Part shown: one piece after another, positions 44,654 through 45,214 of the stretch
Position numbering within the stretch: position 1 is the first letter of the stretch
Layout: each line of letters starts with the position of its first letter
Source of the DNA: Dyella halodurans
Lineage (GTDB): Bacteria > Pseudomonadota > Gammaproteobacteria > Xanthomonadales > Rhodanobacteraceae
Direction of reading: 5' to 3'
Length of the DNA stretch: 64,000 bases
Assembly (NCBI RefSeq): GCF_026283925.1
Contig: NZ_JAPDPF010000003.1
Location: 186,001-250,000 of the forward strand
Notes under the pieces: generated by a model
Seen by the model: the letters and a program-made list of their open reading frames with translations, nothing else
Database searches by the model: none
What the model was told of the DNA's origin: nothing
Position numbers and translations under genes: made by a program

Positions 44654-45214
44654 TTACTTCTTCGCGACCTTGGCGGTCTTGGTGGTCTTGGTGGCCTTTA
44701 CCACCTTGGCGGCGGCGGCCTTCTTCACGGTCCGCTTGGCAGCCTTCTTGGCAACCTTCTTCGCGACCTTCTTGACAGCGACCTTCTTCACGGCAGCCTT
44801 CTTGGCGGCCGCCGGACGCTTCTTGGCGACAGCTTTCTTGGCGACCTTCTTGGCGGCAGCCTTCTTGGCGGCCGGCTTACGGGCAACCGGCTTCTTCGCG
44901 GCGGCCTTCTTCACGGCGGTCTTCTTGGTCGCCTTCTTGGCGGCCGGCTTCTTTGCAGCGGCTTTCTTGGCAGTGGCCATAGTTCGTCTCAGCTCCTCAT
45001 CAGTTGGCAGTGGTTGCCCAGTAAAAGCATGTAGGAACGCCTCCACAAGCAGATCGCTATTGGTGGCGTGCCGAAGATTGTTCACCTGACGACGGGTGCG
45101 TTCGTCAGAAAGGGGCCTTAGAACGTGCAGTGGAATCGAGACCGTGATCTTGCGAACTGCGCCGGCCTTTTCTCCATGCTCGATATAAGGCGGTATGAAT
45201 TTCGATGTTGCCAT
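44654..45214 (-). CDS. metJ: MetJ methionine repressor fused to histone H1-like Lys/Ala tail
   Basis: The 186-residue product has two parts. Residues 1-77 match the E. coli methionine repressor Met[21 protein letters not shown] carries the DNA-contacting beta ribbon (K22 and T24, equivalent to K23 and T25), then [20 protein letters not shown] and [13 protein letters not shown] with SAM-contact equivalents E58, H62 and F64. Residues 78-186 replace the MetJ C-terminus with [16 protein letters not shown] repeats like histone H1/AlgP. ATG 45214 follows a GGAG site. Identity of the repressor half is clear; the role of the tail is unknown. Confidence 0.9.

Follow-up and report, generated by a model that had tools for sequence, protein, structure and literature searches.

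A MetJ repressor with a histone H1-like tail and a probable nested translation start in Dyella halodurans and related bacteria

MetJ is a textbook repressor, and its closest described form is that of Escherichia coli (PF01340; PDB 1CMA, 1CMB and 1CMC), with which the protein analysed here shares an alignable core (residues 5–78), a met-box operator, methionine targets and a box pair upstream of its own gene. The two systems differ in several respects. About 26 residues at the end of the E. coli protein are missing here, and a Lys/Ala tail of 43–312 residues stands in their place; the boxes of the repressor's own gene lie far from the −35; a SAM-I riboswitch is added in the leader of metX-metB; and the residues in contact with SAM are changed in some genera of the family.

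Free-standing bacterial H1-like proteins, such as AlgP of Pseudomonas and Hc2 of Chlamydia, consist of K/A repeats and vary in length. The tail resembles those of the Burkholderia profile NF038053 in its K/A repeats, its length variation and a methionine to which the start of the profile aligns, but it is encoded in frame inside a metabolic repressor and its profile scores stay below the cut-offs. Actinobacterial HU is a folded DNA-binding protein with a K/A tail, and the TopA-like proteins of the order likewise attach a basic tail to a folded DNA-binding domain; neither of these, however, is a metabolite-sensing repressor, and we know of no nested start in K/A-tailed HU or TopA-like proteins. 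K/A-tailed TopA-like proteins, presumably DNA topoisomerase I to judge from a sequence motif, were seen in this and other families (L217, L219, L221, L222, L224–L227, L230, L234, L238, L239 and L241). A K/A tail on a folded DNA-binding protein is therefore known, whereas we know of no description of a metabolite-responsive repressor that has both such a tail and a nested start. An earlier note on this DNA knew of no example of the fusion either, and no description of a MetJ with such a tail was found in the literature, as judged by titles and abstract openings among the matches listed, with most subscription journals outside the scope. As for the riboswitch, a SAM-I leader also lies upstream of the met operon it controls in Xanthomonas campestris (PMC7270179, PMC6230763), of which strain 8004 is reported to lack metJ (PMC6230763); in the bacteria treated here, riboswitch and met boxes share one promoter.

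The model that we favour, with a probability of about 0.7, proposes a nested gene, in which one mRNA would give rise to both a MetJ–H1 repressor and, separately, a free H1-like protein. Ribosomes starting at the first ATG would make MetJ–H1, a ribbon-helix-helix repressor binding tandem met boxes; its basic tail, which in the intact genes has a median net charge of +44 per monomer, would add sequence-independent affinity for DNA. Translation from a second ATG at the junction, with its own Shine–Dalgarno sequence and open mRNA, would yield the free H1-like protein of about 100 residues. MetJ–H1 would repress the metX-metB promoter against its −35, in series with the SAM-I riboswitch in the transcript, and would control its own gene from boxes that lie before the promoter by some ten turns of the helix, a distance over which the tail may help it to act.

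The fusion gene

The window, which is the whole stretch of 64,000 nucleotides that was analysed, carries on its minus strand an uninterrupted open reading frame of 186 aa with an ATG start (44654..45214(-)), recognised from ORF calls and profile matches, which encodes the sole MetJ of the genome. The MetJ domain spans residues 1–79 (44978..45214(-)). Pfam PF01340 matches residues 5–89 with 123.5 bits (cut-off 25) and NCBIfam NF003622 scores 129.1 bits (cut-off 110), while residues 5–78 of E. coli MetJ (1CMA) align without a gap to window residues 4–77 (E 2.2e-32), so that residue n of the window protein is residue n+1 of the E. coli one. The tail, residues 78–186, is Lys/Ala-rich, continues in frame from the MetJ part and is encoded by degenerate repeats of about 15 bases each. 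In the 108 intact relatives K makes up 35% and A 34% of the sequence following the DEEL motif, and 88 of them lack acidic residues there altogether. Two H1-type profiles match the tail below their cut-offs, PF07382 (HC2) with 22.2 against 40 and NF038053 with 22.2 against 80, and none of the 16 genomes scanned gave an NF038053 match above the cut-off. Structure prediction of the fusion (9 sequences) reached a mean pLDDT of 52 and carries no weight here. By both profiles, the 1CMA alignment and the composition of the tail, the earlier note was right to read residues 1–77 as MetJ followed by an H1-like tail. Its picture of the tail as an appendage is incomplete, as the DNA evidence given below indicates that the tail probably doubles as a nested gene that has a start of its own. 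Nor does the note mention the start-like Met79, the SAM-I riboswitch or the met boxes upstream of metJ.

The comparison draws on an order-wide sample of 398 genomes. Named matches of the fusion come from Dyella, Luteibacter, Frateuria, Rhodanobacter, Oleiagrimonas, Dokdonella, Tahibacter, Mizugakiibacter, Rudaea and unassigned bins, and on that basis the family called f1 in our sample is taken to be the Rhodanobacteraceae, mostly soil bacteria, and genus g1 to be Dyella. The metJ locus was read in 110 of the 125 f1 genomes that have MetJ. Counts of intact genes (108) omit L023, cut by a contig end, and L146, which has an in-frame stop, and residue and codon counts cover 109 sequences, L023 being kept.

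Operators, riboswitch and SAM contacts

The predicted targets of the repressor lie in the same window. They are metB, a cystathionine gamma-synthase gene (7740..8930(-); TIGR02080, 598.1 bits, cut-off 504.55), and metX, of the homoserine O-succinyltransferase type (8986..10083(-); NF006449, 374.7 bits, cut-off 296), preceded by a SAM-I riboswitch (10105..10221(-); RF00162, 82.3 bits, gathering score 44.4) and a promoter TTGACA-17-TAGATT (10228..10256(-)). Tandem met boxes (10258..10289(-)) end one base before the −35. The sequence AGACGTCTAAACGTCT at 10258–10273 is one mismatch away from two perfect boxes, and shuffles of the window give 0.09 matches to the two-box pattern at up to 3 mismatches, which bears out the met boxes that had been proposed at 10258–10289. 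In the whole genome only two sites lie within one mismatch of AGACGTCTAGACGTCT, the one at window position 10258 and another at C1:61299; allowing up to 3 mismatches raises the count to 14, which is not clearly above the 9 of the control pattern, so that weak met-box sites mean little. Counting the metX site, 20 genomes of the genus have 70 met-box sites within 2 mismatches, against 9 for the control pattern.

This arrangement is conserved in the family. The SAM-I riboswitch is found in 139 of 147 f1 genomes, and each of the 30 riboswitch loci read (L046–L075) has a met-box pair with up to 3 mismatches located 34–47 nt before the aptamer, as do 0.13% of single-base shuffles; all 30 loci hence place a promoter under a double SAM-type control, with boxes abutting the −35 and the riboswitch in the leader. 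The gap between boxes and riboswitch was 29–35 nt at the 12 sites checked singly. A 23-base pattern joining boxes and −35 occurs in 108 of the 147 genomes (control, 0) and is missed in 39, some of which have looser sites, as in L046, L048, L052 and L054.

Further met-box pairs were observed near TonB-type receptor genes in several genera (L200–L208, L214); the receptors of L201, L204, L207 and L214 score below every NCBIfam cut-off. Pairs also recur between convergent genes, exbD-like and pdxJ-like as named by eye, and beside terminator-like hairpins, with no promoter evident at these places (L032, L196, L197, L213; L195, L198, L209, L210).

The metJ gene itself has a promoter TTGACA-17-TAGCTT (45243..45271(-)), which was read by eye from the alignment and was not listed by the consensus scan. 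TTGACA lies within 110 nt of the metJ start in 110 of 110 f1 loci, and 24 upstream regions were compared. A met-box pair, AGCGGTATGGACGTCT (45371..45386(-); 4 mismatches), is centred 107 bp upstream of this −35, far from the usual place of an operator over the promoter. Pairs with up to 5 mismatches are present upstream of metJ in 76 of the 110 loci and absent from 34; 74 of them are centred 95–125 bp upstream of the −35, most often at 105–108 bp, and at up to 4 mismatches 58 of the 110 loci have a pair upstream of metJ, against about 1 in single-base shuffles. These boxes may serve autoregulation. The ORF upstream of metJ in the window, gcvH-like by eye, runs in the same direction and is followed by a terminator-like site (45891–45920(-); 0.6 expected by chance), and gcv-type ORFs are co-oriented upstream of metJ in 3 of 24 representatives (g13, g15, g17), the rest being not clearly picked. 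Since the upstream ORF is co-oriented, there is no need to assign the remote boxes to a gene running the other way, although another promoter may lie near them.

By its sequence, the fusion protein should be a working MetJ. In E. coli numbering and over 109 f1 sequences, Arg40, Arg43, Glu59 and Phe65 are kept in all 109 and Asn53 in 107, and Thr37 is replaced by Ser in all 109. Roles in DNA contact and activation are assigned to Thr37, Arg40, Arg43, Asn53 and Glu59 in a simulation study, in which Glu39 and Arg42 are also the key partners of SAM, whose replacement is predicted to weaken co-repression (PMC2775130). Both SAM contacts are kept in the window protein and in 79 of the 109 sequences; SAM is the presumed co-repressor. 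Glu39 has become Leu in 29 of the 109 and Arg42 has become His, Tyr or Glu in 30; the replacements fall in g6, g9, g11, g18 and g22, and g17 has His42 alone. Members of those five genera keep the metX operator despite the changed contacts, which suggests that their binding of SAM has altered or that the tail compensates, and the link to SAM appears doubtful where both residues are replaced. A proteomic study of Rhodanobacter R12 found MetJ up and four methionine enzymes down under nitrate (PMC12146267), a correlation that fits repression.

It could be argued that MetJ–H1 is mainly a nucleoid protein, in which the tail dominates binding, SAM plays a minor part and the met boxes are loading or bridging sites. 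The charge of the tail far exceeds the one positive charge that each SAM contributes according to PMC2775130, and the altered SAM contacts of the five genera, the box pairs between convergent genes and beside terminators, and the remote boxes at metJ would all be in keeping with it. The invariance of Arg40, Arg43, Glu59 and Phe65, and an operator that abuts the −35 of a methionine promoter as it does with a normal repressor, argue against this reading, which we regard as unlikely but worth keeping in view.

The junction between repressor and tail

The methionine at the junction, Met79 of the window protein, opens a nested in-frame ORF of 108 aa (44654..44980(-); ATG at 44980–44978) that would encode the free H1-like protein. 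A Shine–Dalgarno-like GAGGAG (44993..44998(-)), recognised from its anti-Shine–Dalgarno pairing and codon conservation, lies 12 nt 5′ of this ATG, and both are part of an element conserved at the nucleotide level across the junction, from about −48 to +18 of the internal ATG (44963..45028(-)). The ATG is kept in 107 of 108 intact f1 genes. The linker from DEEL to the methionine reads RRT, RRD, RR, RRI, KR, KRT or RRA, varying by whole codons only in 108 of 108 intact genes, and no stop separates the MetJ part from the tail in any of the 109 f1 loci uncut by a contig end.

The constraint on this element is seen in the codons themselves. Synonymous identity between genera is 0.848 over codon columns 43–58 (16 columns) and 0.486 over columns −3 to 42 (46 columns), a comparison of 108 sequences and 5333 inter-genus pairs with a Mann–Whitney p of 2.5e-6, which is optimistic because the sequences are related; the same comparison in 20 tail-less relatives gave 0.371 against 0.435 (p 0.22). 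The two codons of GAGGAG are always GAG where Glu is kept (108/108 and 109/109), a further Arg is written AGA in all 103 sequences that have it, ACT is invariant over 109 sequences and CCA over 108 of 109. Allowing up to 3 mismatches, a 30-base pattern of the element was found in 123 of 125 f1 genomes and in none of 273 non-f1 genomes (reversed-pattern control, 0), so that within this limit no copy of it precedes, say, an independent H1 gene in those other families. G150 (g14) keeps the ATG, yet exceeds 3 mismatches to the pattern.

The mRNA around the junction has the properties that a start would need. In 23 of 24 genera the segment from −36 to +21 of the ATG folds less than recodings made with synonymous codons taken from the rest of the same gene, with a mean z of 2.3, values above 1.5 in 19 genera and no effect in g20 (z 0.22), and a sliding scan peaks at the junction itself (2.30 at offset 0, 1.88 at +6 codons, elsewhere at most 1.01). 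The 19 nt before the start were paired with a generic 16S anti-Shine–Dalgarno string rather than one read from these genomes. The mean energy was −10.4 kcal/mol at the junction, −5.7 at the metJ start and −3.8 at control positions, and in the genome of the window it was −11.1 kcal/mol at the junction ATG against −7.4 at the metJ start. The junction surpasses the metJ start in 23 of 24 genera; control positions pair as well as the internal site in 12–14% of cases in g2, g4 and g5 and in 6% in g7 and g14. At 12 nt, the spacer between GAGGAG and the ATG is long.

The only intact gene without the junction ATG, that of G238 (g17), reads GTC GTG in its place and keeps MetJ and tail. In this gene the frozen codons have gone too, the mRNA is no longer open (z −0.12) and the pairing is weak (−5.1), a joint loss that counts as a single event in one genus. 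Start codon, Shine–Dalgarno sequence, open mRNA and synonymous constraint thus occur together and were lost together in g17, as would be expected of an internal in-frame start. A separate H1 gene making up for the lost start in G238 was considered: a 457-aa frame with K/A repeats exists there, but other genera also carry extra K/A proteins, so that this frame proves nothing.

If the free protein were the sole use of the tail, a stop between the two parts would be tolerated, and if the fusion were its sole use, the codons before the ATG would drift. As no stop lies between the parts in any of 109 loci and these codons are frozen, both forms are probably selected. A variant of the nested-gene reading, possible though improbable in our view, makes this chiefly a chromatin gene, with the internal start as the stronger one and the free H1-like protein as the main product; a minor amount of MetJ–H1 would read SAM and set the dose of the nucleoid protein through the remote boxes, with spreading or bridging by the tail. 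In the genome of the window the only other H1-like profile match is the tail of a TopA-like protein, in a search that is weak for low-complexity sequence, so the fusion gene may be the main H1-like source there. The composition of the tail suggests that it binds DNA, which it may also compact.

The internal methionine could also be explained as a fossil. Fusion of metJ to a gene beginning MATAKK would account for it, since position 1 of the free-standing Burkholderia profile NF038053 aligns with the junction Met (score below cut-off) and the frame is kept throughout; the tail would then be a mere appendage of MetJ and no free product would be made. Such an origin leaves unexplained the frozen codons, the open mRNA and the strong Shine–Dalgarno pairing in nearly all 24 genera, as well as their joint loss in g17, and we judge it distinctly unlikely that it is the whole account.

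An equally modest chance is given to the element being chiefly some other cis element, such as a regulatory RNA or protein site, or an RNA structure together with a hairpin upstream of it. Conservation reaches to about −48, some 25 nt further upstream than a Shine–Dalgarno sequence requires, and is preceded in the metJ coding sequence by a candidate RNA hairpin (45032..45074(-)). This region is more folded than expected (z −2.09 and −1.23; negative in 23 of 24 genera). The hairpin pairs third codon positions with third codon positions, and 75% of cells pair in the 24 genus representatives, against 67.8% with shuffled partners (maximum 74.4% in 2000). Sliding the partners gives 40–51%, and the figure for 19 tail-less genes is 35%. 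Of the seven wobble pairs of the hairpin, one is compatible with no more than 12 of the 24 genera. A real hairpin with third-position covariation therefore has moderate support. The constrained parts of the element, however, are those that a start needs, the Shine–Dalgarno sequence and an open ATG, with a spacer free to vary (codons 55, 57 and 58), no Rfam family matches the junction up to E 1, and a short GGCA/UGCC hairpin inside the element was ruled out, being broken in g5 and g14. A string resembling the hammerhead motif (CTGATGAG..CGAAC) was likewise discarded by eye, its CGAA part not being kept in g2, g4 and g12.

Spread of the fusion and its meaning for the family

In the order-wide sample MetJ was found in 145 of 398 genomes, of which 125 belong to f1, 13 to f9, 6 to f12 and 1 to f8. 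All 125 f1 genomes have it, and the families of the sample other than these four, f2 included, lack it. An intact fusion with tail was present in 108 of the 110 f1 loci read, in 24 genera, the proteins measuring 118–387 aa with tails of 43–312 residues. The MetJ proteins of f8, f9 and f12 (20 of 20 loci read) have 79–97 aa and no tail; for one of them, L172, the call of 65 aa is too short, since the open frame extends upstream to an ATG that gives 79 aa. The tail is thus a trait of the family and not of the order. The suggestion that the fusion might be shared across the Xanthomonadales did not hold, the 20 genomes of f8, f9 and f12 being tail-less and the other sampled families having no MetJ, whereas the homologue search that had been proposed did find the tail, with its variation in length, in 24 genera. 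A class-wide sample gave MetJ in only 5 of 369 genomes, two from f1 and three others with open frames of 112–118 aa, and says little on tails elsewhere. According to a survey of about 200 proteobacterial genomes, MetJ occurs in six gammaproteobacterial groups and in none of four Xanthomonadales genomes (PMC4239095).

Among the named loci, which are the best 80 of 561 relatives and overlap the first locus set, so that they are not independent of it, the junction ATG lies in an open frame in 79, the eightieth being L305; the element is present with up to 3 mismatches in 78, and the tail has at least 30 residues in 74, the remaining six being five contig ends and L305. This locus and L146 (G392) belong to a Luteibacter metagenome bin, with an in-frame stop inside the MetJ part and element, junction ATG and tail intact; as it is a single bin, a sequencing error is possible. 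The contigs of L023 and L175 (G382) both hold the 30-base element and end at the junction, an assembly break there.

The wide range of tail lengths, and a DNA made of degenerate repeats of about 15 bases, might suggest a neutral low-complexity expansion. We find this very hard to reconcile with a tail that is present in all 24 genera and has, in every intact gene, at least 30% K+R and at most 2 acidic residues, and with a single interrupted gene in 109, whose stop falls within the MetJ part. An assembly join or sequencing artefact, to which the contig break in G382 and the stop in G392/L305 could have pointed, is already refuted for practical purposes, as is a split gene, by the recurrence of the fusion in 108 loci, several from genomes assembled as one contig, and in named records; the gene is uninterrupted in 108 of the 109 f1 loci uncut by a contig end, in 24 genera, which bears out the fusion read in the earlier note over the frameshift or assembly join that the note named as its refutation.

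The whole family therefore carries a histone-tailed form of MetJ, whose met boxes share a promoter with a SAM riboswitch. Through the proposed nested start, the gene of a metabolic regulator may also supply a nucleoid-type protein. Were the free H1-like protein the main product of the gene, one mRNA would tie a metabolite to the packaging of DNA.
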